Shown here: positions 1,104 through 25,400 of the stretch, piece after piece | Layout: each line of letters starts with the position of its first letter | How positions within the stretch are numbered: position 1 is the stretch's first letter | Virus record (IMG/VR): IMGVR_UViG_3300027822_000001 | Span: 1-64,000 of that record | Source: a virus | DNA length: 64,000 nucleotides | Strand: one strand, 5' to 3' | The notes under the pieces: generated by a model | Seen by the model: the letters and a program-made list of their open reading frames with translations, nothing else | Told to the model about the DNA's origin: nothing | The model's database searches: none | Program-made: the position numbers and the translations under genes

Positions 1104-1491
1104 GGGCAGTAAAGACGCTCAACCTAAAGTACATCTTTTTGAAAAGCTTGATACTTTTTCTGACAAACTAACTATAATGGTTATAGGTAGTAAGGGAGAG
1201 AAGTATCAAGCTTCTTTTATAGATATAAAAGAATATTTATTAAGAGAAATACTTAAGGATTTAGAGAATGTAAAGAAGAAAGTTTCTGAAACAAAGGTTA
1301 CTAAAACTAATTTGCTTAAAGCTTTTGCTAAAGATAGTGATATTAGTTTAGGTAAACCTTATAATATAATGTCAAGTAACGGTATTGAAAAGAAAGGTAA
1401 GAATGGAGTTATCTATAGCGATGACAATCAAGTTAGAGTTAATCTAGGAGGTACTTGGCATACAATATTTGATAAGAATGGCATTCATTGA
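1084..1491 (+). CDS. Small fibre-cluster protein, unknown function
   Basis: This encodes 135 residues from the ATG at 1084, which overlaps the upstream fibre gene by 20 bases. A TTG three bases earlier is also in frame but less likely. The N-terminal half is basic and probably helical (around residues 45-75, Lys/Glu rich). The C-terminal part ends in a short segment resembling fibre tips, with NGVIYSDDNQVRVNLGGTWHTI. Overlap with both neighbours suggests a fixed cassette of fibre parts, perhaps an adaptor or chaperone between fibre proteins. I do not recognise the family. Confidence 0.65.
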   Translation: MRQRLHKGSKDAQPKVHLFEKLDTFSDKLTIMVIGSKGEKYQASFIDIKEYLLREILKDLENVKKKVSETKVTKTNLLKAFAKDSDISLGKPYNIMSSNGIEKKGKNGVIYSDDNQVRVNLGGTWHTIFDKNGIH

Positions 1492-3511
1492 CAATTATGC
1501 ATTTAATATTGAGAATCCACAGAAATTAGAGATACTGTGGAGTCCAGATATAGTTTGGGATTATGATAATGACGGATATCCCTCAGGAAATGAAACTTTA
1601 TTTGATTGGAAAGCAGAGTTTATGCCTTACTACACATCTCCAGATGGTTTTACTGTCTATCATGTGTGGATGAAGTATAAGGTTGGAGATAAAGGAAGTT
1701 GGTCTTTACCAATGAGAGTTAACTATCCAACAGTTGTTAAAGGAGAAAAAGGAGATAAAGGAGCCTATGGAGAACAAGGAACTAGAGGGCAAAGAGGTGC
1801 TGTTGGTAAAGGAATTGATATTCAATATGCAGATGAATATTATAATATAGTTCCATCAAATAGTTCTGCTTCAATGTATGTAAGATTTAGAATTGAAGGT
1901 GAGAATTGGAGTGTTTGGTTAAAAGCAATTGGAACTGATGGAGTTGATGGAGCTGATGGAATTGGCACTGGAGGTACTGGTGTTCCTTCGGGAGGCACTG
2001 ATGGGCAGGTTCTATCTAAAACAGCATTAAGTTATGCTTGGATTGATAAAGTTGATATATATAACAATTCTGACGCTATTTTAGCGATGGGGGTTAAAGA
2101 TGATACTAATTCATTAAATCATGATAAATATACTGATGGGGAAGCTGTTACTGCTATGGGAGTTAAAGGAGATAGTAATCCATTAAATCATGATAGGTAC
2201 ACAGGAGCTGAAGTATTGGCTTTATTCTCTGCTACATCTCCAATAGATATATTAGCTGGAACTATAAGTCATAAAGACACTGATGGAAATAAGCATATTC
2301 CAGCAAGTGGAACACAAGAGTACTCTATAACATTAGATGGCAGTGGAAACTTAGTATGGAAAGATGCTTTGTGGATGAGTGATTTAGATGATACTGCAAT
2401 ATTAGGAGCTACTGATAAATTATATAGTGCAAATAAGATACTAACTCTTTTTGCTGGATTACAATCTTATGGTATACGTTATGTATGGACTGATGCAGTA
2501 GCAAGAGCAGCCGAGGTTGGAATGAGTGCTGATGACTTAGGGGTGCAAGATGATACTAGAGATGTGTATAAGTATAGTGGGATTGCTTGGGAAGTGTTCT
2601 TTAACTTGGATGCAATACATAATCATGATGACTTATACTTTACTAAAAGTCAAGTAACAACTATGCTAGCAGATTACTATACTAAAGTAGCATTACAAGG
2701 TGATGGAACAGCTCAAGTACATTGGAATAATGTGACTAATGTTCCTTCTTTCATTCAGCTTACAGGTATATCAGCAACATCTCCTATATTATATGATGAT
2801 ACTACAGGGGTTATATCACATGCTACAAGTATGATTGGAGTTACTACTAATACATCCTTTGTGGTTCTAAATAGAGTCATTGATGATGGTTTTGGACATT
2901 TAGCAGGTATAGAAAAAATAGATTTAGAAACTTCTGGAAAACATATGATTGTTGATGGTGATGGATTGCAAGTAGTTAAGCATACTTCTGGGGGAGATGT
3001 TACTACTAACTATTATAATCCTTTTGATGATAGTATTAGCTATGAGCTAGCATTATTATTTGCTGGTTCTAGCGGAAACTATGGTACTAGTAATAAAGCA
3101 GCTAGGTCAGACCATAAACATTCTGACAAGAATTTGAGAATAACAGTTACAGATAGTCTTATTGGAGCTGATTTTGATTTAGACTTTGTAAATGGAATAC
3201 TTAACAACTATTCTTTAGTTTCAGCTGGACCAGTTGGTACAATAGGAACAGACGACTTTAATGGAGATTTGGGTAGTATAATAGCTGTAACAACTAAATG
3301 GTATGTAGGAACATCTACTGATACATCATGGTCAATTGTTCATATTAATGGAAATGATAACTGCTCATTTGAACGTTCTTCTGGAATTTATGAATCAAAT
3401 GCAAATCATATTGAACTTGTGGGAGACCCTGACTCTGAGGGTACTTATAATTTAGTATCTCATCCTTCAGAGACTGTTTTAGATGTATTACATGTAATTG
3501 TAAATCCGTAA
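1478..3511 (+). CDS. Tail fibre protein with collagen-like Gly-X-Y stretch
   Basis: I chose the ATG at 1478 (MAFIDNYAF) over the in-frame TTG at 1469; it overlaps the preceding gene by 14 bases. About 677 residues. Roughly residues 85-120 form a short collagen-like run of Gly-X-Y triplets with the GEKGDKG motif, followed by further glycine-rich repeats. The middle and C-terminal parts hold repeated units such as AVTAMGVKG(D/-)SNPLNHD(R/K)YT and a HKHSDKN motif, common in trimeric phage fibres. This is probably a distal fibre or receptor-binding shaft. A hairpin terminator follows 60 bases after the stop. Fibre role is well supported by architecture; the exact receptor is unknown. Confidence 0.8.
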   Translation: MAFIDNYAFNIENPQKLEILWSPDIVWDYDNDGYPSGNETLFDWKAEFMPYYTSPDGFTVYHVWMKYKVGDKGSWSLPMRVNYPTVVKGEKGDKGAYGEQGTRGQRGAVGKGIDIQYADEYYNIVPSNSSASMYVRFRIEGENWSVWLKAIGTDGVDGADGIGTGGTGVPSGGTDGQVLSKTALSYAWIDKVDIYNNSDAILAMGVKDDTNSLNHDKYTDGEAVTAMGVKGDSNPLNHDRYTGAEVLALFSATSPIDILAGTISHKDTDGNKHIPASGTQEYSITLDGSGNLVWKDALWMSDLDDTAILGATDKLYSANKILTLFAGLQSYGIRYVWTDAVARAAEVGMSADDLGVQDDTRDVYKYSGIAWEVFFNLDAIHNHDDLYFTKSQVTTMLADYYTKVALQGDGTAQVHWNNVTNVPSFIQLTGISATSPILYDDTTGVISHATSMIGVTTNTSFVVLNRVIDDGFGHLAGIEKIDLETSGKHMIVDGDGLQVVKHTSGGDVTTNYYNPFDDSISYELALLFAGSSGNYGTSNKAARSDHKHSDKNLRITVTDSLIGADFDLDFVNGILNNYSLVSAGPVGTIGTDDFNGDLGSIIAVTTKWYVGTSTDTSWSIVHINGNDNCSFERSSGIYESNANHIELVGDPDSEGTYNLVSHPSETVLDVLHVIVNP

Positions 3512-3570
3512 TTGATAACTAATACTATCTAAAAATTAGTATATAATACTATAAATTACAATAACTTAAT

Positions 3571-3603
3571 AGCTACTTTTTATTCATATAGAAAGTAGCT
3601 TTT
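3571..3603 (+). terminator. Hairpin terminator after the collagen-like fibre gene
   Basis: AGCTACTTT at 3571-3579 pairs perfectly with AAAGTAGCT at 3592-3600 around a 12-base loop, followed by a short T run. It separates the fibre genes from the 3635 gene. The surrounding 120-base gap holds no ORF; I see no convincing promoter in it. Confidence 0.6.
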
Positions 3604-3634
3604 AAAGTTATTATATTAAAATAAAAAAGAATAA

Positions 3635-4501
3635 ATGAAAGCAGACATAGCAATAGCTAAGATATTAAAGTTTATAGACCATGCTCTCAAGGGAAGTTTA
3701 GTTGTAACTTCAGTAGGAAGCAGTACTACTACTGAAACTAATAGTGCTGCTATCTTAGCTGAATTGGGAACTGTAGATAGCTCTATAAATAACATAAAAA
3801 GCACTCCAACTATAATGGCAACACACTGGAGTCCTACTGATTTTACAGCAGCATATACAAGTATTGATACTATTATATTATCAGGGCATCAAGACTTGTC
3901 CGATTCTTCACAAATTAGAGGAATCAAAGTAGTGAGAGCAGATAATACCTCAGAGATATTAGTTAATGGGGCAGGAGTTACAATGACTTATTTAGCTAAT
4001 GTAATAACTGTAGTAGGGTTAACAACTAACTTTAGTATAACAGATGTATTTGAAGTTGGTATTAATTATCAAGATAAGGCATATGATTCTGAATTAGATA
4101 CAGAAAAAAATGTGGTACAGAATCCATTATGGAAAAGATATACTCAAAAAGAACCATTAGTAACGGCACAGGATTTAACGGCAGCTTATGCAAACGTTGG
4201 CAGCTTAATTGATATGCAAGGCTACGGTAATTTAGTTATTGCGGTAACACGAGATATAAATGACAGCGAAGATGTATTATTAAAAGCTCTCGGAGAAATT
4301 GAATCAGGCGGTACTTTAAATGCCGAAATTGACGGGCTTAGTGAAAAAACATTATGGACAACCACGGCAGCAAGTGCAGACGGAACAACTATTTATACTT
4401 TTGAAACAGACGGAATACCTTATATACAGCTACAAGCAATAGCAGGAACATTAGGTGCTATGGCAGGTGATTTGACTATAAGTATTATAAAAAAATACTA
4501 A
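3635..4501 (+). CDS. Probable virion/fibre protein, chimeric
   Basis: This encodes 288 residues from an ATG placed 32 bases after the upstream hairpin. The N-terminal ~170 residues are Ser/Thr rich with short predicted helices (MKADIAIAKILKFIDHAL) that could anchor the protein to the virion. The C-terminal ~120 residues (from QKEPLVTAQDLTAAYANVG) read like a compact beta domain. The DNA changes character at about 4140: codons such as ACG, GCG and CTC and GC-ending choices become more frequent than in the 5' part. That suggests the C-terminal domain was acquired by recombination, as is common for exchangeable fibre tips. No known family recognised; virion role is inferred from position. Confidence 0.6.
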   Translation: MKADIAIAKILKFIDHALKGSLVVTSVGSSTTTETNSAAILAELGTVDSSINNIKSTPTIMATHWSPTDFTAAYTSIDTIILSGHQDLSDSSQIRGIKVVRADNTSEILVNGAGVTMTYLANVITVVGLTTNFSITDVFEVGINYQDKAYDSELDTEKNVVQNPLWKRYTQKEPLVTAQDLTAAYANVGSLIDMQGYGNLVIAVTRDINDSEDVLLKALGEIESGGTLNAEIDGLSEKTLWTTTAASADGTTIYTFETDGIPYIQLQAIAGTLGAMAGDLTISIIKKY

Positions 4502-4505
4502 TATT

Positions 4506-5120
4506 ATGGCAGGATTTAAAAACGGAAATAAGCAAGTAAATGAAATAGAATTTTTCGAAGAGAATCCTATAAAAATGAACGATACTGTTTGGAGAGATAT
4601 ATATGGTAGGGTTATTTCTAAGAATTTAGATACAGCAACAGGACATTGGGATTGGAATAGTGGCTATTTCAGAGCAGATGATTCTGCAAATGTTTCAAAT
4701 GATGACCATGCTCTTTATATTCTCACACAACTTAATCATTTTGTAGACTACAGAGCAGGCTCATACACTTCTTTGCACATACATTGGAAACAAGAACAAG
4801 ACCCTGCAAGTTATAAGCCTGCTTGGAAACTATAATATAAAATAATTGATTCAGGTGGAGAAGTTCCTACTTTTTGGACAGATGGTTCTGTTCTTGAAGA
4901 AAGTGCTTTTCCTTATAACAATGCAGGAAAGCAAGACCAAATCACAACTTTTAATCATATTGATATAGAAGGATTAAATGTGTCGAGTAGAATACTGTTT
5001 AAGTTGTGGAGAGATGGCACAAACGTATTAGATACATATCAACAATACTTATATTGTAGCGATTTTGATATTCATGTTCCTGTTTATATACAAGGAAGTA
5101 AAGAAGAAATAATAAGATAA
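4506..5120 (+). pseudogene. Structural gene interrupted by in-frame TAA
   Basis: One continuous frame runs from the ATG at 4506 to the TAA at 5118-5120, 204 sense codons, but it contains a TAA at 4833-4835 (codon 110). Before the stop the protein reads ...SLHIHWKQEQ...PAWKL; immediately after it continues YKIIDSGGEVPTFWTDG and runs 94 more codons with similar composition to a natural-looking end. The second half has no ATG, so it is unlikely to be a separate gene. A single change such as GAA to TAA would explain it; programmed read-through is possible but I see no evidence for it. The product is probably a virion protein, judging from its neighbours; family unknown. A 109-aa truncated product is expected if the stop is obeyed. 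Confidence 0.75.
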
Positions 5121-5146
5121 TTATTAACCAAAAAAAATAAAATAAT

Positions 5147-5524
5147 ATGTTTAAAATAAATATTAGTAACCATCCTAATTTTCCTGATATTACAAGGAAA
5201 GCTGAAATGATTGCCTTAACACAAGACAGCCAAAAAGGTAAAATTACAATGGAAGTTCAAATTGAACACTACTTAAATGATTTACCTTTTACCGAATACA
5301 ACAGACCGATAAAATTGTTGTTAAACAACACAGCACAATATCCTACCGGAGAAATGGATGCCGAAGGTAATCCCGTAACAATAGGAGACTATGATTATTT
5401 CACGATGCAGGCAGAAGCAGGAGCATCACTTAAGTCTTTGGTAGAAGGCGGTGTTATGCAAGTGGATAGTACAAAGGTATTAGATATTAAGTGTGCCTAT
5501 AAAGATGTACCTGAAGTAATTTAG
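5147..5524 (+). CDS. Small protein of the receptor-binding cassette
   Basis: This encodes 125 residues, starts 26 bases after the interrupted gene and ends in TAG six bases before the next ATG. It has no signal peptide, membrane segment or cysteine cluster, and looks like a single soluble alpha/beta or beta domain. Codon use (ACCGG, GCCG, CCCG) matches the 4140-8762 segment rather than the rest of the genome. I do not recognise the family. Position suggests a tail or baseplate-like accessory, or a linker for the LamG proteins. Confidence 0.6.
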   Translation: MFKINISNHPNFPDITRKAEMIALTQDSQKGKITMEVQIEHYLNDLPFTEYNRPIKLLLNNTAQYPTGEMDAEGNPVTIGDYDYFTMQAEAGASLKSLVEGGVMQVDSTKVLDIKCAYKDVPEVI

Positions 5525-5529
5525 AGGTT

Positions 5530-6759
5530 ATGGCTAAAGAGAGCTTATACGGTATAGATAAGAATCTTATATTCAGAGAAACTTTTAATAGTGAACAAGC
5601 TGTAAGAAATAATGGTGGTGTGCCTGTTGATGTAGATTTTAGTGAGGGTGTTGGTAGTTTTAATGGGAGTAGTAGTATTATTGACTTTGGGAATAAATTT
5701 GAAACTTTATTAGACAATGAATATTCTTTTAGAGCTATTGTTAAGCCTAACATAGATGATGGAATTGTTATTTATCTAAGTAACACTACAATTCAAAGTA
5801 GCATAACTATAAGACTTGATACAAATTGTATAGGTTTTTCAAGGGCAGGTGTAAACAGAGTAATGCTTCTTTCTGATTTAGATATTGCAACAAAACATGA
5901 AATAATAGGTATTTATGATGGTAGCGGTATTAAATGTTATATAGATAATATCAAAGTTATGCTAAATATATCTACTTGGTCTTCTATGGGTGACCAAAAA
6001 AAATTAATAATAGGAGATAGAGCAGTTAGTAATTCAAAAGAATACAATGGCACAATAGACCTAATAGAAATCTACAACAAAGCCCTAACAGCCGAAGAAG
6101 TTTCAAACTTATACAACAAAACAACACATCGAGCATTAAATCATGCAAATAAAATATTAAGTGTGAATACGTTGGGTGGTGTTATTAAAGATAAAGCAAG
6201 TAATCCTTTAACAAACACAAATGTTGAAGTGTTTAAAGCAGGACAATTTCCAAGTATGAAGTTTAATGGTGTTGATAGTATGATTGATACAGGTAGTGAT
6301 ATGATAGGTACGAAAGCTGTTACTGTTTTTGGGTGGATAAAACTGCATAGCTCTGGAGAAAATATAACAGGAAGAATTATAGACAACGGAAAGACTTATT
6401 TCTATATATATGGAACTACTATGAAATTATTTTTTTCAAGTAACTACTCCACTCCAGTAAGTTCAAATAATTATTCAATAAAATTAAATAAAGAACAATT
6501 TATAGTAGCAACAAGAAAAGCTGATGGTAAAGCATCCCTTTATATCGGAGATAAAAGCAATACACCTGTATTAAGTGGATTAACAGACCGAGATAGTGGA
6601 ACTCCGGAAATAGGAACAACAAATGTAATCATAGGTAATAGTGCAGACCAAACAAGAACTTTTGACGGCTTAATAAATCAACTAACAGTAGTAGAAGGCA
6701 TCCTAATACCTGAACAAATAACTCAAGCATGGTCAAGCACTAAACAATATATAGAATAA
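5530..6759 (+). CDS. Receptor-binding protein with two LamG-like domains
   Basis: A 409-residue protein with two tandem concanavalin/LamG-type jelly rolls. The first spans about residues 30-200 (VGSFNGSSSIIDFG ... YNGTIDLIEIYNKALTAEEVSNLYN). The second spans about 240-405 (MKFNGVDSMIDTGSDM ... FDGLINQLTVVEG.L..EQITQ). The paired signatures FNG..S.IDFG at the start and the G.I..(I/V)..Y...L..E(E/Q)(V/I) tail are typical of these folds, which usually bind glycans. This is likely a receptor-binding or fibre protein contacting capsular or surface polysaccharide. The start ATG lies six bases after the previous stop. The lectin fold is well supported; the ligand is unknown. Confidence 0.8.
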   Translation: MAKESLYGIDKNLIFRETFNSEQAVRNNGGVPVDVDFSEGVGSFNGSSSIIDFGNKFETLLDNEYSFRAIVKPNIDDGIVIYLSNTTIQSSITIRLDTNCIGFSRAGVNRVMLLSDLDIATKHEIIGIYDGSGIKCYIDNIKVMLNISTWSSMGDQKKLIIGDRAVSNSKEYNGTIDLIEIYNKALTAEEVSNLYNKTTHRALNHANKILSVNTLGGVIKDKASNPLTNTNVEVFKAGQFPSMKFNGVDSMIDTGSDMIGTKAVTVFGWIKLHSSGENITGRIIDNGKTYFYIYGTTMKLFFSSNYSTPVSSNNYSIKLNKEQFIVATRKADGKASLYIGDKSNTPVLSGLTDRDSGTPEIGTTNVIIGNSADQTRTFDGLINQLTVVEGILIPEQITQAWSSTKQYIE

Positions 6760-6764
6760 ATACA

Positions 6765-7166
6765 ATGAAAAAACTAATAACAATAGTAATAACATTGATG
6801 CTGTTCACACTAAACATGACAGCACAGACAGAAAATAACATATTCCAGCAAGACAAGGTAGCTCACTTCTCATGTGGCTATTTAATTAGTTCTTATACTA
6901 ACATACAAACCTATGAGCTATTAAGTTTCACACAAATGAACACTAAAACAGCCAAGGCAGTAAGTTTAATTACAGGAGTAGGAATGGGTGTGTTGGCAGG
7001 ACATTTAAAAGAAACATATGACAGAAGGCATGGAGGTACTTATAATATGGCAGACTTGAGAGCAACAATATATGGTAGCATAGCAGGAAGCATAACTATA
7101 AGATTAATACTATGGAATAGCTTTCCAAGAAGTAAACTTCCTGACGATGTATTTATTAACTATTAA
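6765..7166 (+). CDS. YfiM/DUF2279-like secreted or membrane protein
   Basis: A 133-residue protein with a Sec signal peptide (positively charged MKK, hydrophobic core, likely cut after TAQ at about residue 21). It carries two motifs of the YfiM/DUF2279 group: DKVAHFSCGYLISS near residue 31, and KETYDRRHGG.YNMADL followed by a Gly-rich hydrophobic segment near residues 88-118. A second hydrophobic segment lies around 65-80. YfiM-like proteins are small predicted lipoproteins or membrane proteins in Bacteroidota and enterobacteria without a firm biochemical role. Its place between two lectin-fold genes suggests a transferred cassette. It might alter the host envelope (lysis or superinfection exclusion); that is speculation. 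Confidence 0.65.
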   Translation: MKKLITIVITLMLFTLNMTAQTENNIFQQDKVAHFSCGYLISSYTNIQTYELLSFTQMNTKTAKAVSLITGVGMGVLAGHLKETYDRRHGGTYNMADLRATIYGSIAGSITIRLILWNSFPRSKLPDDVFINY

Positions 7167-7178
7167 ACATGAAATAAG

Positions 7179-8762
7179 ATGGCAAAAGTATTCGATTGGA
7201 AAGCAGGCAGTTTAATAGATAAAGTAAGCGGTAATTTACTTACTAATAACGGTGTTGTATTTAAGCAGACAGAAAAAGGGATGGCTGGGTATTTTGATAA
7301 CGGAAATTCTTTAACTCTTACAGGATTAAATTTAAATGTAATTAATTTTCTTAGCAATGTTAAAGGAATAGGAACTTTAAGAATAGCTGTCGGAGCAAAT
7401 AATACAGATATAATATTAACAGACAATTTATGGAAACAAGTTAAAAATACAGTATCTTATACATCTGAAACATCAATAACAATAAGTTGTATATCAGGTA
7501 ATATATATTTACAAGTAATAACTTTATTTGATACAACTTTAACAACACAAGAAATAAACAACGAATACAAAGACTTCCTAAACTCACAACCCTTAGCGAC
7601 AACAAAATTTAACTTTGATTACAGCTCTTTAAAACCGACAGATTTAAGTAATGAAGATGGTTTAATAGCTGCCTATAATTTTAAAGATGTAACTGATATT
7701 AGTTCAAAGGGGCATAACGGTACAAATATTGGGCATCCTTTAAGAACAAATGAAGGAATAAAGTATAACGGAGTTGATGATAAAACAAGTTTTGGAGATA
7801 TAGGAAATGTAAAATCAGTAGCATTTAGGATTAAACTAAATTCGGATACAGAAACGATATTAGAGGGAGCTGCAAATGATAAACTTATATATGCAAGTTC
7901 AGGAACGTTAAGTTACCCCGATTTTGACAGTGCTTATGTTAACGGAGTAACTTCAAATATAATAGTTGAAGGATTGTGGTTAAATGTTTTTATTACTAGC
8001 AGTACAGATGTCAATATGTCAGTTTTAACATTAGCTCTTAATAATACAAGTTGCGGAAAGTTTGAAATAGCTTATTTACGCTTTTATACAACCGAAAAAG
8101 ATATTAATTTTATAAGAAACTACCACAACCAATACGCCAAACAAGTAACATTTATTGATAACTTTATATATGAACCTGCCGACGGTACTAATATTGTACC
8201 TCAAGATTGGATAGCAGGAACAGGAGATTATAAAATTAGTGAGTTAATAGCAGATGACGTAGTATTACCGCACTTAAAGAAAGGTACTAAAATGTTAGAG
8301 TGTGTAAATACAGGTACAATAGCATTTCCGAGTAAGCAAGTTTATGGCACATGGGAATTTGATGTAAGCAGCAGTTCTCTTATTGTGTGCTATTTTATAA
8401 ATAATAATATTGACATTAATAACGGATATGCAATAACTTTAGAAACAAACAGATATTACACAATTACACTTTCAAAAGTAGTATCAGGAGTACACAATAT
8501 TTTATTTAAAACAGCAAATAATTATATTAGTGCAAATGTAAACTACCGCATTAAAATAACTTCATCATTAATTGGAAAATTTACAGTATATATTAAAGGT
8601 GGTACATTTGGAGATAATTATGTATTAGTATATGTAATAGGTGGTAGTGGCACAAATCCTGTAACAAGTGCTACATATAAAGTTTCTAATTTTACAATAT
8701 TATCTCTTTATCCAGGAAGTCAAGTAACAAACATCAAGTACACAAAAGGAATAGAACAATGA
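7179..8762 (+). CDS. Large LamG-like receptor-binding protein
   Basis: A 527-residue protein with at least one clear LamG-like jelly roll at about residues 160-320 (LIAAYNFKDVTD ... YNGVDDKTSFGDIGNVKSVAF.IKL). An incomplete-looking one lies at 1-130 (WKAGSLIDKVSGNLLTNNG ... GYFDNGNSLTLTGLNL). From about residue 325 (FIDNFIYEPADGTNIVPQDW) there is a third beta-rich domain resembling carbohydrate-binding modules. It shares architecture and codon use with the 5530 gene, so the two probably arose by duplication or were acquired together. Likely function is binding of host surface glycans. The stop overlaps a small ORF (8759) in an ATGA arrangement. Confidence 0.75.
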   Translation: MAKVFDWKAGSLIDKVSGNLLTNNGVVFKQTEKGMAGYFDNGNSLTLTGLNLNVINFLSNVKGIGTLRIAVGANNTDIILTDNLWKQVKNTVSYTSETSITISCISGNIYLQVITLFDTTLTTQEINNEYKDFLNSQPLATTKFNFDYSSLKPTDLSNEDGLIAAYNFKDVTDISSKGHNGTNIGHPLRTNEGIKYNGVDDKTSFGDIGNVKSVAFRIKLNSDTETILEGAANDKLIYASSGTLSYPDFDSAYVNGVTSNIIVEGLWLNVFITSSTDVNMSVLTLALNNTSCGKFEIAYLRFYTTEKDINFIRNYHNQYAKQVTFIDNFIYEPADGTNIVPQDWIAGTGDYKISELIADDVVLPHLKKGTKMLECVNTGTIAFPSKQVYGTWEFDVSSSSLIVCYFINNNIDINNGYAITLETNRYYTITLSKVVSGVHNILFKTANNYISANVNYRIKITSSLIGKFTVYIKGGTFGDNYVLVYVIGGSGTNPVTSATYKVSNFTILSLYPGSQVTNIKYTKGIEQ

Positions 8763-10677: not shown

Positions 10678-11097
10678 ATGATAGAATTTATAAAAGAATC
10701 ATGGTTTATAATACTAGCTGGATTTTTAATTCCTACCATATTCTTTATATTTAAAGAGTTTTTTAAATTAAAGAATAGAAAGATGGATGATGAAGTAGAA
10801 AGAATTAAAGAAGAAGCTAGTTTTAAAGAAATAATTAACAGAAAGTTAACAGATATAGAAAATAAAATAACAGAGCAGTTTACAAAACTAGAAAAGATGT
10901 ATTTAACTGCTAATTCAAAAGTAGAGGCAAATAGAAATGATATATATAGTAACAAGCGAGATATAGAATCTATTGAGAAAGAAATAGAGAATACTAAAGA
11001 GTGTCAAAAAGACATTGAAGATAAGATGTATGCTCTTAATAGAAAAGTTACAGATAGATTACTAATAATAGAAACCCTTAATAAACATAATAAATGA
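10678..11097 (+). CDS. Single-span membrane protein with long coiled coil
   Basis: A 139-residue protein: one N-terminal membrane helix (about residues 9-28), then a basic stretch and a Lys/Glu-rich coiled coil from about 35 to 125. This layout resembles inner-membrane spanins and some holin-associated proteins. The last base pairs overlap the next start (ATGA at 11094-11097). With the 140-aa membrane protein and the peptidase upstream it could form a lysis or membrane-penetration set, but I cannot assign a family. Confidence 0.55.
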   Translation: MIEFIKESWFIILAGFLIPTIFFIFKEFFKLKNRKMDDEVERIKEEASFKEIINRKLTDIENKITEQFTKLEKMYLTANSKVEANRNDIYSNKRDIESIEKEIENTKECQKDIEDKMYALNRKVTDRLLIIETLNKHNK

Positions 11098-11774
11098 CAC
11101 TAGATTATTATATAGCTGATATAAGAGCAGCAACTAGAAACTTACATGATGATGGCAATCTAGATGACAGACTTATAGTTAGATGGATTAATACACAAAG
11201 AGCACTATGGATTAAGAGGCAAATAGGAAAAGAATATATAATTAGTAGTAATATATCTCAAACTATACCTTGTATCGAACTCAAAGTAGCTACAGCATCT
11301 GAATGTAATTTATTTAAAACAGATAGTAGATTATTAGTTTCAACTAAAATTCCTAAACCAATAGAACTTAATGATAGGCTGGCAATTATTGATGTCAGAA
11401 CTCCAGAATTACTTGGATACTCAATTACTCTTGTTGATAGAACTGATTTAAAGTATGTAAATAATGGTAGATTTAATAGTATGGATATATATGCTACCTA
11501 CTTTAGAGATAGACTGTATCTTAAGGTGCCAGAAAATAACTTTAAAGCTGCTTTGTTAACTTATATATCTTATGAAGCAGTACTGGAGAATCCTACAGAA
11601 GCCTCTGGTTATAATAATTGTGATAACTCTCCATGTTTTGATATTGATAATGATAATTATCCACTTAGTGATGCTTTATGGGAGTACATTCAAGGACAAA
11701 TAATAACTAATAAATATGAAATTCGTGAACAAATTAGAGACACAGGAGAGAACAACGAGAGCGGGGACAGTTAA
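11094..11774 (+). CDS. Connector/ring-type virion protein
   Basis: A 226-residue acidic protein starting in an ATGA overlap. The N-terminus (DYYIADIRAATRNL.DDGNLDDRLIVRWINTQRALWIKRQI) resembles head-tail completion and ring proteins of crAss-like phages, which stack between portal and tail. Such proteins sit immediately before the large tail stabilisation protein in these genomes, as here. It has no enzymatic motif. Assignment rests on remembered similarity of the N-terminal helix region and on gene order. Confidence 0.55.
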   Translation: MTLDYYIADIRAATRNLHDDGNLDDRLIVRWINTQRALWIKRQIGKEYIISSNISQTIPCIELKVATASECNLFKTDSRLLVSTKIPKPIELNDRLAIIDVRTPELLGYSITLVDRTDLKYVNNGRFNSMDIYATYFRDRLYLKVPENNFKAALLTYISYEAVLENPTEASGYNNCDNSPCFDIDNDNYPLSDALWEYIQGQIITNKYEIREQIRDTGENNESGDS

Positions 11775-12922: not shown

Positions 12923-15900
12923 ATGGAAAGTATAAATGTTTTTACGCAAGGGATGGATAAAGATACCTCTGATGAGTTAATTTCGACACAACGATATAGA
13001 CATTTAGAGGGAGGAGATATTCTTTATAAAAGTGGAGATAGCGCTGGAACTGTAGTAGATATAAAAGGTAATGAAGTTTTAGATATAGTATGGGCTACAG
13101 ATACTGGTGAATATCCAGTAGGTTATATAGATGTTCTTACTGAAGTCGCAACAAATCCATACTCTTCTGTTTATAAGATTAGAGGAGTTGGATATATTAG
13201 AGATGACATTGTACTATTATATGCGGGAGCTAATTCTTACATGATAGTAGATTTATTAAAATATGATGAAGCTAATAACAGATACATAAGAATTAACATA
13301 TTCTATGAAGAACATTTAGATGTATCTCAGAGTAATTGGTTCGTTGTTAATACTAGATATGAGAATGAAGCTAGTTTAAAAGTTTATTTCTCAGAGAAGA
13401 ACAATGACGAAGGGGTTATAAATAATCTTAGATATTTAAATGTAGCCCCTGATATTGTTGATGGTGTTATTTTAAATAATAAGTTACAAGCTAGCTATAA
13501 TAGATATAGACCATTTCCTACAAGTGGAATAGAATCTTTGGGAAAAATTACATCTACTATGTTACCAGCTCCTACTTTAGATAGTAAGAGTAGTGGTGAT
13601 TTATATAATGGTGTTTATCAATATTGTTATAGGTATTTTAATGAGTTTGGAAATAAGTCTGGCATTAGTGATTTAAGTGAACTTATTCATTTAAGTAAAA
13701 GTGGTTATACAGATACTAGGGAATTAAGAGGGGGTCTTACTACTGGTACTATAGATGAGATAAATTCAAATAAAGCTATAAGTATATCTATACCGACAGA
13801 TACTTCATACACTCATGTAGAAGTTATAAGATTATGGTATAGTAGTTTTACTTCAATACCAACTATGGCTGTTATAAGACAGCTTCCTATGTCAACTTCA
13901 ACAAATCAAATTATAACAGATAGTTCTTTTGATTCTGTTGTTAGAGAACTAGACTATAATGAGCTTAATGCATTGAGCAACTTATATAGTGCTAAAGCAG
14001 TAGTAGATAAGGATGATGTACAGTTGCTGCTTAATATTGATGAAGATAGCTTTGATATTGATTTTGATGCTAGAGTTTATCAATATGATTCTGGACATAC
14101 TTGTCAACTACAAAATGAGAGTGGAGCAAGTGAGCTATCTTTTACAGCAGCAACTAAAGATTATGCTAACATACCAGAAGAGAATGATTGTGTTAATCCT
14201 ACGAATAAGCTATCAAATGACTTTTTAACAGCTCTCAATGGATTTAAGTATAATGAAGCAGGAACACTTGGTGCCGATGGTTTAAATGTTCATGTTACTT
14301 ACACTACTAAAACTATAACATTAGAAAGCTCTTCAATAGAACTCAACTCGTATTTAGAACTTAATACAGACTTTAGAGAAGATACCGCTTTAGGAAGAAA
14401 ACGTTTCTTTCAGAGTGATGAAATATATAGACTTGGACTAGTATTTAGAGATACATATGGAAGATTTACTCCTGCTAAATGGATGGGAGATTTGAGAATG
14501 CCTAGTTATGATGATTTATGGGGTGCCTCTGGAGCTATAGCTAATAGTCCTGCTGTAAGAGTGGCTGTTCCAAGAATTACAGTTAATACTGCTGGAACTG
14601 AAGCTGAAGGTTTAGCTTATAAAATTGTTTATGTAAAGAGAGAGAAACTAGATAGGACAGTTGTAACAGAAGGTCTAATGACTGGTGTTAGATATCCTGA
14701 TTCTGATTTACCAGAGTTTGAACATAGACCTGCTGAATATATGAATGCTAGATATGTTAATACTCATGGAGATATCGAAAGGTGTTTTGCTGCGTGTTTA
14801 CCACATAATTCGAGCTATCCATATACTGATGTTATGGGTATTGTTAGTCCTGAAGTTTTATATAATAAAGATACTAATTTTAACGGTTGTAGATTAGATG
14901 TAAAAGCTACTTTTGATATTAATACTTCTTCTACTGGTAATGGTAATGGAGAGCCTAATTATGACAATACTGTTATATTTTCAGCAGAGCCACCATTTGA
15001 AGGAGATACTATTCAAGATTTACCACAGTTTAAAATGTATAGAACTAAGACAGGAGATTTTGTTTCTAGAAGTGATAGTAGTACTTTTGATATTTTAGAA
15101 GATAAATTTGCTTTAAGTGGTAGTGCTGTTAGTATTAATGGAATAGAGATAGCACAATATGCTATATCGTTTGTTACTGATACTTCTGTTTCTTCTAAAG
15201 ATATATATATGATGGGTAATCCTTGCACAACACATTATGTTGCTTTAGACCAATCTGTATATAGTGTTGGAAATATTAATTCATGGTCTATTCCTTATGT
15301 AAGAGTAAGAAAGGATACTGTTCAGTATGGGGGAAGAAGTTATGAGGCAAGACAAAATAATGTATATATAAGTGCCAGCGAATTAACAACTGCTTCTTAT
15401 ATAGATTTATATTTTGGAGATACTTTTATAACTATGTTTGAGTATCAAAGAACACAATTTCCTTTAGATAACTTAGATGATAATAGCGACCCAGAAGATA
15501 AACCTTATAGAATAAGTGCATCAGAAACTGTTTTAGTTCCTGTTCAATCAACAATAAATACTAATTTTAGAAGTGCTGAAAGTTTCTGTTCTTTACAAAG
15601 GGGATTAATAGGAAATTCTACATATCATAATATGCAAGTAAGAGAAGAAGGATTAGGATACTTTCAAACAACATATGGTAGGTATTCAAGCACAGGTGCT
15701 CCTACAACTTTAACGGCATATAAAGTTAGTGGTTCTTCTATATCATTAAGACCTCTGTATGAATATAATTCTGTATATAGTAAAATAAATAATGCTAAAT
15801 TATTTATATCAACTTTACCAACTTCTTTTGACAACAAACATTTTGATACTAGAATAAGATATAGTGATAAAAAGAACAATGGAGAGTTATATGATTCTTG

Positions 15901-17302
15901 GCTAATATATAAAACTGCTAACTTTAAAGATTTAGATAATAAGTTTGGTAGTATAAATAATGCACTTAAGTTTAATAATGAAATAGTAGTATGGCAAGAT
16001 AATGCTACTGCTTTTTTAGTGATAAATCCAAATGTGCAGATGCAAGGAGATGATGGCATATCTATGTATATGGGAACTGGAAAGTTCTTACATGATGTAA
16101 AATACTTAAGTACTGATATAGGATTACAAGGAATAAATGAAGTAGTACCAAGTATATCATCTATTTATTGGTTAGATAATAATAAGAAGAAAATCTATAG
16201 ATTATTGCAAGGGTTGGAATCTGTATCTGATACTAAGTTGATGAATAGTTATTTTGCAGCTACAGTAAAAAGAGATACTAGATTTATAGGAGTATATGAT
16301 AACTCTAGAAAGACAGTTATAGCAACCTTACTTAATTATGTTGGTAACTATATAGATAATGATTTGTTTAGTGTCACATACAGCACAGAACCTACCATAA
16401 TTGTTGCAGGAGATACAAATAATGTAGAAATGATTTCTGGAGATTCATATAATTTAACTTCAGGAAGTTATTCTGGTGAATATATTTTAGATAAGTTAAC
16501 GTCTACTTCTTTAATGTTTACTAGAGTAAACGGAGATTTGTTGCCAATAGGAATTATATTTTTAAGGAAATATTTAAAGTATTATAGCTCTTATACTGTA
16601 GAATTTGATGAGATGCTAGATGCCTTTAAAGGATTCCAACCTTATATAACTTCTTTGTACTTGAAAGGAAACAAACAAGTATTTAGTACAGAAGATGATG
16701 CTTTATTGTATGAACATAATGTTGGTAATAGAAGAACATTCTATGGAATTAAATATGATTTGATACTTGACTATGTTTCTAATAAAGAACCAATAATAAA
16801 TAAAAAGTTTGAAGCTTTAACAGTAGATAATCAATCTATAGATGAAACTAGAGATTATGAAAATATCGTTGACTATGATGGAGCTGAAAATATCACATTC
16901 GATGGTGTAAGAGTTTTAGCAGATAGAAATATGACTGAGTATATAGATTTACATACTAAAGATGGTATGATAACTACTGAACTTATTAATGGAACTCCTA
17001 CTGGAAATATAGACCCTACTGTATATAATGGTGCAAATAGGGTAATACATGATACTAATGGAATAAGGATTATACCTTATCCAACACATTTATATAATGT
17101 CCGAATGACTTTAAACAAGTTTAGACTAACATTACCTAGAATTAAGACAGGCAGAGTAGATAGTACAAACAATAATAAGTTAATAACAGAACTTGTTAGA
17201 GGAACAACTGCTACTGTTAGATTAGTTTATTCTAACATAACTGAAAACATATTTAAAGTTAGGAACATCATAACACATTTTACTACAAATGAAATCCAAT
17301 AA
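12923..17302 (+). CDS. Tail stabilisation / muzzle protein (P22 gp10-like)
   Basis: A 1,459-residue protein. The N-terminus (INVFTQGMDKDTSDELISTQRYRHLEGGDILYKSG...GTVVDIKGN) fits the opening pattern F..GM..D.....(Y)R.(L/A)......G.v...KGN of the large stabilisation or muzzle proteins of crAss-like phages. These relate to P22 gp10-type tail tubes that close the tail exit. The rest is beta-rich with abundant Tyr, Asp, Thr and Ser and no catalytic motif. It follows the ring-protein genes and overlaps the next gene by 14 bases, the standard crAss order. It is thought to form the distal tail nozzle through which DNA and cargo proteins leave. Confidence 0.75.
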   Translation: MESINVFTQGMDKDTSDELISTQRYRHLEGGDILYKSGDSAGTVVDIKGNEVLDIVWATDTGEYPVGYIDVLTEVATNPYSSVYKIRGVGYIRDDIVLLYAGANSYMIVDLLKYDEANNRYIRINIFYEEHLDVSQSNWFVVNTRYENEASLKVYFSEKNNDEGVINNLRYLNVAPDIVDGVILNNKLQASYNRYRPFPTSGIESLGKITSTMLPAPTLDSKSSGDLYNGVYQYCYRYFNEFGNKSGISDLSELIHLSKSGYTDTRELRGGLTTGTIDEINSNKAISISIPTDTSYTHVEVIRLWYSSFTSIPTMAVIRQLPMSTSTNQIITDSSFDSVVRELDYNELNALSNLYSAKAVVDKDDVQLLLNIDEDSFDIDFDARVYQYDSGHTCQLQNESGASELSFTAATKDYANIPEENDCVNPTNKLSNDFLTALNGFKYNEAGTLGADGLNVHVTYTTKTITLESSSIELNSYLELNTDFREDTALGRKRFFQSDEIYRLGLVFRDTYGRFTPAKWMGDLRMPSYDDLWGASGAIANSPAVRVAVPRITVNTAGTEAEGLAYKIVYVKREKLDRTVVTEGLMTGVRYPDSDLPEFEHRPAEYMNARYVNTHGDIERCFAACLPHNSSYPYTDVMGIVSPEVLYNKDTNFNGCRLDVKATFDINTSSTGNGNGEPNYDNTVIFSAEPPFEGDTIQDLPQFKMYRTKTGDFVSRSDSSTFDILEDKFALSGSAVSINGIEIAQYAISFVTDTSVSSKDIYMMGNPCTTHYVALDQSVYSVGNINSWSIPYVRVRKDTVQYGGRSYEARQNNVYISASELTTASYIDLYFGDTFITMFEYQRTQFPLDNLDDNSDPEDKPYRISASETVLVPVQSTINTNFRSAESFCSLQRGLIGNSTYHNMQVREEGLGYFQTTYGRYSSTGAPTTLTAYKVSGSSISLRPLYEYNSVYSKINNAKLFISTLPTSFDNKHFDTRIRYSDKKNNGELYDSWLIYKTANFKDLDNKFGSINNALKFNNEIVVWQDNATAFLVINPNVQMQGDDGISMYMGTGKFLHDVKYLSTDIGLQGINEVVPSISSIYWLDNNKKKIYRLLQGLESVSDTKLMNSYFAATVKRDTRFIGVYDNSRKTVIATLLNYVGNYIDNDLFSVTYSTEPTIIVAGDTNNVEMISGDSYNLTSGSYSGEYILDKLTSTSLMFTRVNGDLLPIGIIFLRKYLKYYSSYTVEFDEMLDAFKGFQPYITSLYLKGNKQVFSTEDDALLYEHNVGNRRTFYGIKYDLILDYVSNKEPIINKKFEALTVDNQSIDETRDYENIVDYDGAENITFDGVRVLADRNMTEYIDLHTKDGMITTELINGTPTGNIDPTVYNGANRVIHDTNGIRIIPYPTHLYNVRMTLNKFRLTLPRIKTGRVDSTNNNKLITELVRGTTATVRLVYSNITENIFKVRNIITHFTTNEIQ

Positions 17303-20156: not shown

Positions 20157-22484
20157 ATGGCAAGATTTTGGAAAAGTAGGTACACTAGACCTATTAATAC
20201 TTTCGTACCACTACCATTAGATTATCTAAGGAAAGTAGTGGACAAAGAAAATAAAGGCTTTGCAGATATAAAGGACGCAGCAGGAAATATAGATACAACA
20301 AGTTTAAATTACAATGCTTGGTCTCCTAATGATGTAGCTGTTGCTGAGAAGTTTAATAAAGATAGGATGGATTATATAAGTGGAGCAATAGGTGCGATAG
20401 ACCCATCTAATCTAACAAAAGAAAATTGGAGAAACCAAAAAGATAAGGCAGCATCTTTTGTAATGAAGGCTAAAAGGTTAAATGCTAGTAAGAATACTCA
20501 AGGAACGGATGCTTGGCAGGTAGAACAAAATAAGAAAGCTTCTGATGCTAGTGATGTGGCTGTCAATAAATTAGGACATTATGATGCAGATATGAAACGT
20601 AATGCTATTTATGAAGGTAGGCGTAATTATTTGGCAAGAGATGCAGCCAGAACTGCCGGTAGCATAGGCTCTTTTGATAAGTATATTAGTGGTAGCTATT
20701 ATGACAAGGATAAGTTTTATACTGCTATGAAATCAATTGTACCTCAAAAGATAGGTAAATCTAGTAATTGGGGTTTTAATTCGGAATGGCTTGGTCATAC
20801 ATATAAAACTACGGAAACTAGAGATTTCGCTACTCTACTATCTAAAGGAAGTGGCTTATATAGAAGCAACAATGAACTTCAAAGTTGGCATAAAGAGCTG
20901 GCACGTTTAAATTCATATAATTGGACAACAAGAGATGCTAATGGTAATATAAGACATCTTACTGAGAATGAAAGAACACAAAGACTATCTCGTGAATATT
21001 CATCAATAGAAACTGGTGGATTAGATGCTAATAAATATAATAATTATATGACCGGGTTAGCTAATGCTCAAGAAGCTGAAGCTAATGGAAAAAAAGATGC
21101 TGTTAAAAATTATTATAATAGTAATCCTTTTAAAATAGAAGATATGATGGCTAGAGGTACTATTGCTGGAGATTTATTAGTTAGTAATGCTAATGCACTA
21201 CAACAAGAAGATGTAACAAAAAATACTACTTATAGTCATAATCCTAACTTTAATGCTGATGGAACAAGAAAAGGAATGCCCACTACAGGGTCTGAATCTA
21301 GAGGAGGTAACACAACTGAAGTATTTAATCCTACTAATTTCGTTTATGATTATAATAAAGCTAAAAATAATGGCACATTAAAAAATAATATATATGATTT
21401 TGGGATTAAGGCTTTTTCTTCACTCAATTCAAAAGCTAATGGAAGAGGTAAAGAAATGGTTAATGCAGTATATAATTTAAATCCTAGTTTATTTGATAAA
21501 CAAATGATTAAGTTAGGATATACACCAGATAAAACTCCAGGATTCAATTGGACAGAAGGTAATAAGTCTAAGAAATATGTATGGAAACCAAATGACTTTA
21601 ATAGAGGAATGGCAACTATTATGCAGAGTGGAGATTATGGTGATAAACAATATAGCAGGTCAGTAAATGCTTCTGATTGGGCTAATCGATTTATGACTCC
21701 TAAGATTGGAGTAGAAACTTCAGAGTTAGATAATATTAACGATTTTGCTAAGAAAGTTCATAGTATAAACAAACAATATACTAATGAAAGTAGTTTAACT
21801 GGAGCAGAACCACAAGAATATATAGTACAAGGAACTGATTTGATAATAACAAGTGAAAGCCCTCACTTTAAAAACTATATGGGTTATATAAAGAGGTCTT
21901 TAACAGGAAAACAATTAGGGACTGACTTAGAAGATAATCCTAATATAAGTGGTGTTGGCTTTTCTATAAATAATGGAGAATTTAGAGCTAAGATAAAAAC
22001 ACAAAAATATAAAGAAGACGGAACTGTAGAAGCTGGAAAGTCCACTTCACACTATGTTACTCTTAATGAAAACAACATTGGACTTCCTGGAGTTATAGGA
22101 GCTAATCTTATTGTTTCAGCTGAAAAGTACAATCTTGGAACAGACCAAAATATAGTAAATAAACAAACAGGATATAAGTATGGAGCTATATCTTTAATTC
22201 CTATAGATGAGTTAGAGCAAGCTGGAAGTAATACAGACCCTGATAAAGGATTTACTATAAATGCAGCTAGAAATAATGGACATGCAGTATCTTATCAATA
22301 TATTGGTACTGATGGTGCTGGTAACAATCATTATGCTGCTTATACATATGATAAAGCAGAAAATGGTTTTAAACCAATACAAAGTGTTTCAGGAAGTTCT
22401 GAATTTGTTGGTAATGATGGTATATTAGAAGCTTATGGAACTGCTAATAAAGAGGCTATTAAAACAAGTTTTTTAATTCAATAG
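20157..22484 (+). CDS. Virion (probably internal/cargo) protein of crAss-like phages
   Basis: A 775-residue protein. The N-terminus (MARFWKSRYTRPINTFVPLPLDYLRKVV) matches a start I associate with a conserved crAss-like protein encoded just upstream of the RNA polymerase giants. Residues 40-330 are mostly helical and Asn/Asp/Lys rich; the C-terminal half contains beta-rich stretches ending with NHYAAYTYDKAENGFKPIQS. No signal peptide or enzymatic motif. It is first in an operon of four genes for very large proteins, all with short spacing. A structural or capsid-stored cargo role is inferred from family context. Confidence 0.6.
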   Translation: MARFWKSRYTRPINTFVPLPLDYLRKVVDKENKGFADIKDAAGNIDTTSLNYNAWSPNDVAVAEKFNKDRMDYISGAIGAIDPSNLTKENWRNQKDKAASFVMKAKRLNASKNTQGTDAWQVEQNKKASDASDVAVNKLGHYDADMKRNAIYEGRRNYLARDAARTAGSIGSFDKYISGSYYDKDKFYTAMKSIVPQKIGKSSNWGFNSEWLGHTYKTTETRDFATLLSKGSGLYRSNNELQSWHKELARLNSYNWTTRDANGNIRHLTENERTQRLSREYSSIETGGLDANKYNNYMTGLANAQEAEANGKKDAVKNYYNSNPFKIEDMMARGTIAGDLLVSNANALQQEDVTKNTTYSHNPNFNADGTRKGMPTTGSESRGGNTTEVFNPTNFVYDYNKAKNNGTLKNNIYDFGIKAFSSLNSKANGRGKEMVNAVYNLNPSLFDKQMIKLGYTPDKTPGFNWTEGNKSKKYVWKPNDFNRGMATIMQSGDYGDKQYSRSVNASDWANRFMTPKIGVETSELDNINDFAKKVHSINKQYTNESSLTGAEPQEYIVQGTDLIITSESPHFKNYMGYIKRSLTGKQLGTDLEDNPNISGVGFSINNGEFRAKIKTQKYKEDGTVEAGKSTSHYVTLNENNIGLPGVIGANLIVSAEKYNLGTDQNIVNKQTGYKYGAISLIPIDELEQAGSNTDPDKGFTINAARNNGHAVSYQYIGTDGAGNNHYAAYTYDKAENGFKPIQSVSGSSEFVGNDGILEAYGTANKEAIKTSFLIQ

Positions 22485-22487
22485 ACT

Positions 22488-25400
22488 ATGAAGATACTTG
22501 ATAATGACCCAACTAAGAATAAAAAACAAGAAACTCCAAAATTAGATAGTGAATCATTAGAGGAGTTACGTAAAGACGCAGAAAGAATAGAAGAGATAAA
22601 CAAATCTGGAATAGTGATGCATTCTCCAGATTTAAGAATGAACACAAGAAGAGAGAAGTTTAATTACAGTGATTATACAGATTATATAGATTTAGATGAG
22701 ATAAATTTAAATGATATAGAAGCTACTAATAAACTTAGAGCTAGCAGGCAATCTACAAGAGAACAAATAGGGTTATCTGTAGGTAACTTAGTAGGTAATA
22801 CTGCTGTTGGTATAATACATGATATTGGAGCAATTGGAGCTCTAGCTTCTGAGTGGGGTAGTGATAGAGATTATACTAATCCAATAACTGAGTGGGCTGA
22901 GAAGAATAGAAATCCTTTTGGAGAGGTTTATTCTGAGTCTGCTGATGGTATGGGCTGGGATAGCGGAAGTATTATAAATCATATATCAGGAGTTGTACAA
23001 CCAGTAATACAATTTGGCTTAGAATCTATACTACTTGCTCAAGCGTTCAAACCTTTATCAGCTATTGGTGAAGGTATGAGTCAATTAACTAGAGCTAAAA
23101 ATGTAGCACAAGCAGTAGAGAAAGCTAATTGGGCAACTAATATGACTAAAAGTGTTATTAATGGAGGAGCTAGAGCTATGGAAGGCTTTGTTCCACAAGC
23201 ATTAAATAGCTACTCAATAGGTTACTTTGCTAGTGTTGATGGGGCTCATAATGCATACACACAAGCATATGACCATGCTCTTAAGAATATGAGTATAGAA
23301 GACCCTTCAGATGCTACTCCAGAACAGGTAGAAAGAGCTAAGAAATTTGCTTCAAGTTTTGCTTCTGACTATGCTAAATTCAACACAATGTTATTTGGTA
23401 GTTTGAACTTTAGCTTACTTAAGCCAGGAATGCAAACCACCGCTATTAGAAATGAAGTATTAGGAGCTTTAAAAAATGAAGAAAAACAAATGTTAGCAAG
23501 TCAAGCTGAAGCTGGTTTAAACAGAACAATAAGTGCTGGTAATTTAAAAGAAGCCCTGAAAGGAATGGATGAGAAGATTGCATCTAACTTTGTCAGAAAA
23601 GGAGAGCGAGGAATAGACTATGCTAAAAAAGCAGCTCATGGAGCATGGGTTTTTGGAGCTATGGATATACTAGCTAACGAAAATACAACTAAGAAAGCAT
23701 TAGCTAATTATGAAAATGTTCTTGATGCTAATAAAGGAGAGCTACCATCATTTCTTTCAAGTGTTGGTAGAATGACTGGATACATGAAAGCAGCATCTGA
23801 TGAGTTGGATGATATTGTTAGAGGTAACGATCCTGACGGAGCTAAGAAGCTTAGGCTATCCCTATTAACTGGTGCTGCCTTTAGTCCAATACATAGTTTA
23901 GTAAATTCTAGGCTATCTAGAACAAAAGTATATACAAAAGATGCGGATGGAAATGTTATTCCTGTGTTGAATGAAGCAGGAGAACCTACTGGAAAGTATG
24001 AATCATATAAAACATCTAAGTATAAAGCACATAAAGTTGAAAGACAAAGAGTATTTGATTACTATAAAAACAGTCTTATAAAAGATTTAGATGTAATTGA
24101 AAATGCTGATAATAAATTAAAGCTTATTGCTGATGTTGGTGAAGAAGAAGCAGGTATAACTCAAGATGAAGTTTTTAGGGACTTATTTGATTTACAATCA
24201 TATGAAATGATTACAAGAGGTGGTAAAGATTTTCTTATTAACTCTCTTAAAGATGTTATGAATGTAGATAATACTGTAGATATGGGAGCTAAGATGGTTG
24301 AACAAAAAGCTATGTTAGATGCTAAGATAGCTGAAATTGAAAAGATTCCTTCAGAGAAGAAAACAACTGAGCAATTTGATGAGTTAAAGTCTTTAAAAGA
24401 GCAATCTAAAGACTTAGCTGAGAAGTCTGTACGTTATAGTGGAAAATCTGAAGCAATGATTAAAGGATTTGCTGATGAGATGGAAACTAAAGAAAGGGCT
24501 GGAAAAGCTTCTAAATATAGAGAAAAAGCTAATAAACTTATTGAAGATATTAAATACTTAGATTCTAAATATAAAGAATATAAAGATAATTTTGGGCACG
24601 GTAAGACTGCTGCTTTGGGACTTCCTGAGTTTCTTCTTAAGCTTGAACAAAATAAACTAACTGCATCTAATTGGTTAAAAGAAAACCCCTTAATTGATAA
24701 TCTTACTAAAGGTAAAGATGAATCTTATAATAATCTAGTTAAATATAAGTTACTAGATAATAAGTTAGAGATTTTAGCAACAGCTATGGTTGGAGCTTCT
24801 CCTTTAGAAGTTTCTACGCTTAAAGCTGATTTTGATAAGACAAGAAATGAAATACGAGAAACAGAATCTTATAAATATAGAGATGAGTTAGATAAAGCAA
24901 GTGAAGAAATAAAAAGTAAGTCACAGCAGTTAACTACTGAGTTAGACGCTACAATAACAGATAATAAAGAAGTATCGGAACCTTTAAGGAAGAAATCTAC
25001 TGAGAATAAGAAGTTAAGTAGAGAATGGAACAACTTAGTTAAAGAAACATCTACATTAAATGATAAGAAAATAGAACTTAAAGATAAATTAGATAATAAA
25101 GAGGTATCAGAAAAGGATTATAGAAATCAAAGCAAAAAGATATATAAGGAGTTGTCTTCTCAGTATGATAAGATGGCTAAATTAAGAAAAACAGTTTCAA
25201 CTAATAAGATGGAATTGTCTAGACTAACTAATTCTAGGGAAACTTTTGATAAGCAAGAGGAAAGAATTACATCTGAAATAGAAGAATTATCTAAACAATT
25301 TAAGGATAATGTAGCTAATATAGATAAGTTTTATAGTGACCTAAAAGAGTTAGATAAAAGAATTAAAGTAGATAAAGAACTTACTGCCTATAATTCTAAG

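Follow-up and report, generated by a model that had tools for sequence, protein, structure and literature searches.

The reading frame at positions 4506-5120 (plus strand) of the window, as we call the whole 64,000-nucleotide stretch of viral DNA analysed here, is interrupted by one in-frame TAA, and the explanation that we favour as a whole, at a probability of about 0.6, is that a gene which is accessory and probably associated with the tail has suffered a nonsense mutation. The stop, an intact second half and homologs that run through the stop column were directly observed, and we infer that the change is genuinely present in the phage population and recent. According to this explanation, the product of the frame is, or was until recently, a single beta-sandwich domain of some 180 residues, and the domain would belong to a large phage family in which it usually closes its protein at the C-terminus. 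One nonsense mutation would have struck codon 110, which lies within a central beta-strand, and the phage as written would make the first half only. Because that half should not fold into the domain, the gene would by now have become a pseudogene of recent origin. The cassette around it would be accessory and probably serve the tail, and the related phages searched showed no counterpart of it.

The frame comprises 109 sense codons, the TAA at 4833-4835, 94 further sense codons and a closing TAA (203 sense codons in total), with the following features:

4506..4835, plus strand: ORF as translated by the standard code, 109 aa, the putative N-terminal half of the beta-sandwich domain; 23.9 bits by itself against the family profile
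4833..4835, plus strand: in-frame TAA, next base T (TAAT), inside predicted strand 107-114; a stop in 0 of 108 homologs
4836..5120, plus strand: same-frame continuation, 94 codons and a stop that matches the usual end of the family; 45.2 bits by itself
4980..4982, plus strand: in-frame GTG, the first common start codon past the TAA, which would leave 46 residues only
4572..5111, plus strand: span of the match to the domain family, read-through residues 23-202; 82.3 bits

At the local base composition, 94 stop-free codons are expected by chance with P of about 1e-4, and each of the other five frames contains 4-11 stops between 4836 and 5117. The coding signal in the reading frame is 0.38 bits per codon in the first half and 0.345 in the second, and it is negative in the other five frames (the codon table was made from 50 genes, the first half itself among them); the second half thus retains its full coding signal, and no further lesion is apparent. 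The preliminary description, in which the frame carried on for 94 natural-looking codons past the TAA, is borne out by this signal and by the profile match of each half. Its statement that the second half has no start codon holds for ATG, but there is an in-frame GTG at 4980 and a TTG at 5004, both too late for making the domain. Among the 83 ORFs of 80 aa or more kept for the complete record (92,595 bases, virus, classed linear), this is the only one with a read-through extension of at least 50 codons and no ATG; each of the seven other extensions of that length has an ATG within its first 4 codons, i.e. the next gene. That termination and re-initiation yield two polypeptides which assemble into a split domain is hardly credible. 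The GTG at 4980 is preceded, some bases before, by AGAAGGA, and the rare starts ATA and ATT lie 3-4 codons past the stop, but the GTG would provide 46 of the 94 residues, ATA and ATT start codons are very rare, and no relative in the blind sample described below is split likewise.

Direct searches returned no relatives for either half in viral contigs or phage records, and none for the first half in genome contigs; the protein had no match in PHROGs, Pfam or a PDB sequence search, nor did the DNA of 3500-8000 match any phage record. A match to MT836619 (E = 9) covers 41 residues only, in an ORF that looks unrelated by eye, and was dropped. The family was entered through a marginal tblastn match (E = 0.06 in the database search) to OP947162, the Rhodobacteraceae phage LS06-2018-MD06, whose protein WBK39843.1 carries the same domain at its C-terminus and aligns with 28% identity over 172 residues across the stop (E = 2 × 10-8 as a single comparison), with E at the stop column. 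Its gene follows that of a distal tail protein, and a tail spike gene lies two further on; unlike 4506-5120, it is intact, and about 190 residues of other sequence precede the domain in the same protein. A first DNA pattern (HVHW, then W..EY), drawn from this match, found 83 stretches in viral contigs; 77 of the 80 that were listed are in frame and clearly one family, and three are out of frame. Loci L138-L140 were fetched from outside those 80. The second pattern ends before the stop column, so that the collection is blind to it, and it found at least 120 stretches. Both scans together give at least 191 viral-contig loci (L058-L140 and L147-L254), and the domain is present in 185 of the 188 examined. 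Neither of two collections yielded a match to a two-row alignment, two family members run by tblastn against phage records (E = 1e-3) gave 0 and 0 matches, and the three matches of a PDB profile search were all at chance level.

A profile was built from the 65 distinct first-scan members with a stop in reach, the sequence of 4506-5120 being left out. The read-through protein, with X at the stop, scores 82.3 bits over profile positions 7-179 of 181 (173 of 181 matched); the best of 1000 shuffled controls reached 6.3 bits for the read-through protein, 4.8 for the first half and 7.5 for the second. A profile of 50 sequences that includes the protein itself (alignment A3) gives 140.6 bits. In A3, the invariant residues F55, R169 and G197 and the residues W29, D31, D176, H190 and S198 (conserved at 90% or more), none of them forced by the search patterns, are all present in the read-through protein; the protein likewise has the invariant H78, G85, H91, H93 and W94 and the 90%-conserved W107 and Y111, which one or both of the patterns dictate. 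By these matches, the protein can be assigned to what we call, as a working name from the present analysis, the 'HVHW' phage beta-sandwich family, and its interrupted frame would make it a broken member. Across 151 members, the open frame has a median of 242 residues and is longer than 350 in 39; the domain stands at its end in nearly all members that were examined.

Since only E at the stop column can satisfy the first pattern, the 77 in-frame members that it gave were kept out of the residue count, which covers all 108 loci new in the second scan (106 distinct; L139 and L140 match the first pattern and were excluded). All 108 match the family profile. In none does a stop occur at the column or in the codons that lead to it from the pattern, and the column holds E in 46, D in 21, T in 9, R in 6, Y, K and A in 5 each, I in 4, N and Q in 3 each, and S in 1. 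Their own stop comes 86-115 codons past the column (median 95; 104 of 108 in reach, the open frame of the other four extending to the end of the fetched stretch), and that of 4506-5120 comes at 95. Since the relatives read through the column and stop 86-115 codons on, and since the TAA falls inside a predicted strand, the TAA at 4833-4835 is an interruption of the gene and not its natural end. Both checks on homologs proposed in the preliminary description thus came out for an interruption: 108 of 108 blind-collected homologs have a sense residue at codon 110, and none normally ends there. The 109-residue product is what standard decoding gives, but it is very improbable that it is a natural short form followed by dead sequence; apart from the relatives, none of which ends there, the second half still outscores the first against the profile (45.2 vs 23.9 bits).

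Nonsense-type lesions are rare in the family, since the stretch from the pattern to the usual end is free of in-frame nonsense codons in all 108 relatives; this rarity counts against a nonsense mutation in 4506-5120. Damaged copies of the domain do occur, because 2 of the 65 profile members (L103 and L134) have, from a reading of the three frames, a frameshift inside the domain with the remainder readable in another frame; a third profile member, with 81 residues, ends slightly early. The frameshifted L103 is very similar to the intact L080. Such copies, damaged or misassembled, also count for a sequencing or assembly error, by which the gene would be intact in the phage and the consensus wrong at the stop. 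This error is the most serious competitor of a nonsense mutation, though an unlikely one. The record is of the IMG/VR kind and classed as linear, and the intact second half with no other lesion fits an error equally well; against it, the change is of the substitution type and not an indel, and it is the only such case among the 83 ORFs of the record.

In an AlphaFold2 model of the read-through protein (Q at 110, 49 relatives in the alignment), which is all beta with a pLDDT of 76.7 and a pTM of 0.74, residue 110 lies inside the predicted central beta-strand 107-114, and truncation there would remove 6 of the 11 strands wholly or in part. The matches of this fold in the PDB are beta-sandwiches with Z of about 7-8, ephrin-receptor and carbohydrate-binding types among others. 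In a specific comparison with CBM6/35/36/22, VIA-align placed CBMs at Z of about 7-8, level with ephrin-receptor, seipin and Cry beta domains, and Foldseek at E ≤ 0.001 found only two PDB chains, neither of them a CBM; fold matches of this predicted kind are too common for naming a function, and among the families listed the search singled out no specific one. The best viral model matches (BFVD) are collagen-repeat proteins of Catovirus CTV1 (A0A1V0SAG0_2; E = 2.1 × 10-9, 203 columns, 21% identity, TMq 0.63) and Klosneuvirus KNV1 (A0A1V0SLI4; E = 6.3 × 10-7, TMq 0.60). These are giant-virus proteins, and homology to them is suggested by a single structural search, whose query model has a pLDDT of 77. 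We would only guess at a link of the domain with collagen-like fibres; (GXX)8 or more occurs upstream in the same ORF in 3 of 151 phage ORFs of the family.

The source is, by its sequence, assigned to the crAss-like phages (Crassvirales) as a distant member, both its terminase and its capsid being of crAss-like type. PHROG matches in the record are terminase, portal and capsid; the ORFs for terminase and capsid, both open, cover most of the PHROG profiles that they match. The terminase matches 145 phage records, and the 15 matches listed are mostly 'cr' crAss-like references (37-40% over 91-93%); for the major capsid, which matches 93 records, the 10 matches listed show 27-28% over 95-96% and include PhiCrAssBcn phages. 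In a test for a target of a diversity-generating retroelement, reverse transcriptase PF00078 was found in 0 of 1 records, this one, which may be incomplete, and the control was positive in 3 of 14 genomes. The genes around the split frame are as follows:

1469..3511, plus strand: 680-aa protein, probably a tail fibre, with visible GxY repeats in a short collagen-like stretch (weak matches: tail fiber in PHROGs, E about 0.04; Collagen in Pfam, E 0.026, which misses the cut-off)
3635..4501, plus strand: upstream neighbour, 288 aa, no family match; matched in 0 of 36 crAss-like relatives, many of them fragments
5147..5524, plus strand: downstream neighbour, 125 aa, no family match
5530..6759, plus strand: 409-aa protein with a Laminin_G_3 (concanavalin A-like lectin) domain (PF13385, E 1.1 × 10-22)

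The split gene therefore stands after the probable tail-fibre gene and before the lectin-domain gene, separated from each by one gene. The structural, receptor-binding cassette of the preliminary description has indirect support only, from the lectin domain two genes downstream, the weak collagen-like stretch upstream, the distal tail protein beside the one annotated relative, and the lectin- and CBM-like domains that stand with unrelated ones among the fold matches. From its neighbours and the unspecific fold match, the product of 4506-5120 probably served the tail.

A terminase search for the closest crAss-like relatives gave 51 loci, and the large protein of 12923-17302 and the capsid, used as queries for close relatives, gave none. 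The protein of 4506-5120 was compared with 49 of the 51 (all except L055 and L056), and none matched; 17 of these records exceed 85 kb and the rest are shorter, many being fragments. The family profile likewise matched none of 36 records, with our own record as a positive control that gave a single place. The same 36 were also searched with the neighbour gene and the 11094-11774 protein, and 20 with the 21801-23090 stretch. Because the protein found no match in 49 of 49 records and the profile none in 36 of 36, the gene appears to be accessory. In-frame TAG occurs 4, 4 and 1 times in the homologs of the gene at 11094-11774 from three crAss-like relatives (G016, G044 and G048, at loci L145, L146 and L144), which fits the known recoding of TAG; the source phage and the relative G004 have none in this gene. 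The very large genes 20157-22484, which ends in TAG, and 22488-28373 are in the same frame, separated by the TAG, one codon and an ATG. A TAG read-through across 20157-28373 was considered and rejected, since a 1970-residue frame in G004 matches the second part only, so that the region looks like two genes.

As for the decoding of this phage, TAA ends 56 of the 83 ORFs, the first half of 4506-5120 counted, as the preliminary description had it in saying that TAA ends most genes; TAAT is the commonest stop context of the genome (25 of 83, the same ORF again counted), and no tRNA genes were found in the record. CrAss-like phages reassign TAG (to Gln) and TGA (to Trp) (PMC7886860, PMC9523058), and the earlier statement that reassignment of TAA is not known among them agrees with section 10 of PMC7886860; in one genome, OKSC01000115, a tRNA has mutated into a TAA suppressor, with no trace of TAA reassignment (PMC7886860). 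The likeness of those systems to ours is a probably structural gene with an in-frame standard stop; they differ in that their recoding concerns TAG and TGA, whereas 4506-5120 is a single case of TAA in a record in which TAA is the main stop and no tRNA genes were found. Reassignment of TAA to an amino acid in the source phage has next to no probability. It could invoke the one in-frame TAA, the TAG and TGA reassignments of other crAss-like phages (PMC7886860, PMC9523058) and the three relatives with in-frame TAG in one gene, but stop usage nearly refutes it, and the terminase and capsid ORFs are open.

A leaky or programmed read-through of the UAA, by a near-cognate or a suppressor tRNA of the phage or the host, would give short and full-length products, and it could explain why the second half is undamaged and stops at the usual end of the family. 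The suppressor tRNA of OKSC01000115 speaks for it as well, as do the same-frame fragments split by standard stops described in crAss-like phages, where host-encoded suppressors could go unseen (PMC7886860). However, a stop conserved in relatives would be expected of a programmed event; no conserved signal is indicated, because 0 of the 108 relatives, all distant ones, stop at the column. UAAU, moreover, has been suggested as the most efficient bacterial terminator (PMC5289835), and the short form would, in the model, end inside a strand. The prevalence of TAA as terminator, the rank of TAAT as the most frequent context, the failure to find tRNA genes and the absence of a second such extension from the record all disfavour read-through and reassignment; read-through of either kind is improbable. 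Partial suppression of the UAA by a host or unseen tRNA, with a small share of full-length product and a large share of the short form, is somewhat more improbable still; if true, ochre read-through would dose a tail protein in a crAss-like phage.

The strain variation of tail genes in p-crAssphage (PMC6962324) resembles the present case in that both concern a change to the coding sequence of what is probably a tail gene in a crAss-like phage; there, however, the variants were measured from reads, whereas 4506-5120 is known from one consensus sequence. In the mothers' samples of that study, nonsense variants were less common than expected (PMC6962324), and this counts against a nonsense mutation here. 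A literature search found, among titles and abstract openings, no paper on such a case.

In short, of the three causes put forward in the preliminary description, nonsense mutation and error are the most likely and read-through is disfavoured. Most likely the event is of a kind already known, namely common damage to an accessory gene or a fault in assembly, and not a new decoding trick; the split gene, as one interrupted accessory gene, matters little by itself, and decoding novelty should not be claimed. Scans of 50 'HVHW' members gave no match in Pfam and one weak match in PHROGs, to a PHROG without description; the family is nevertheless widespread in phages, and this side result outweighs the split gene.
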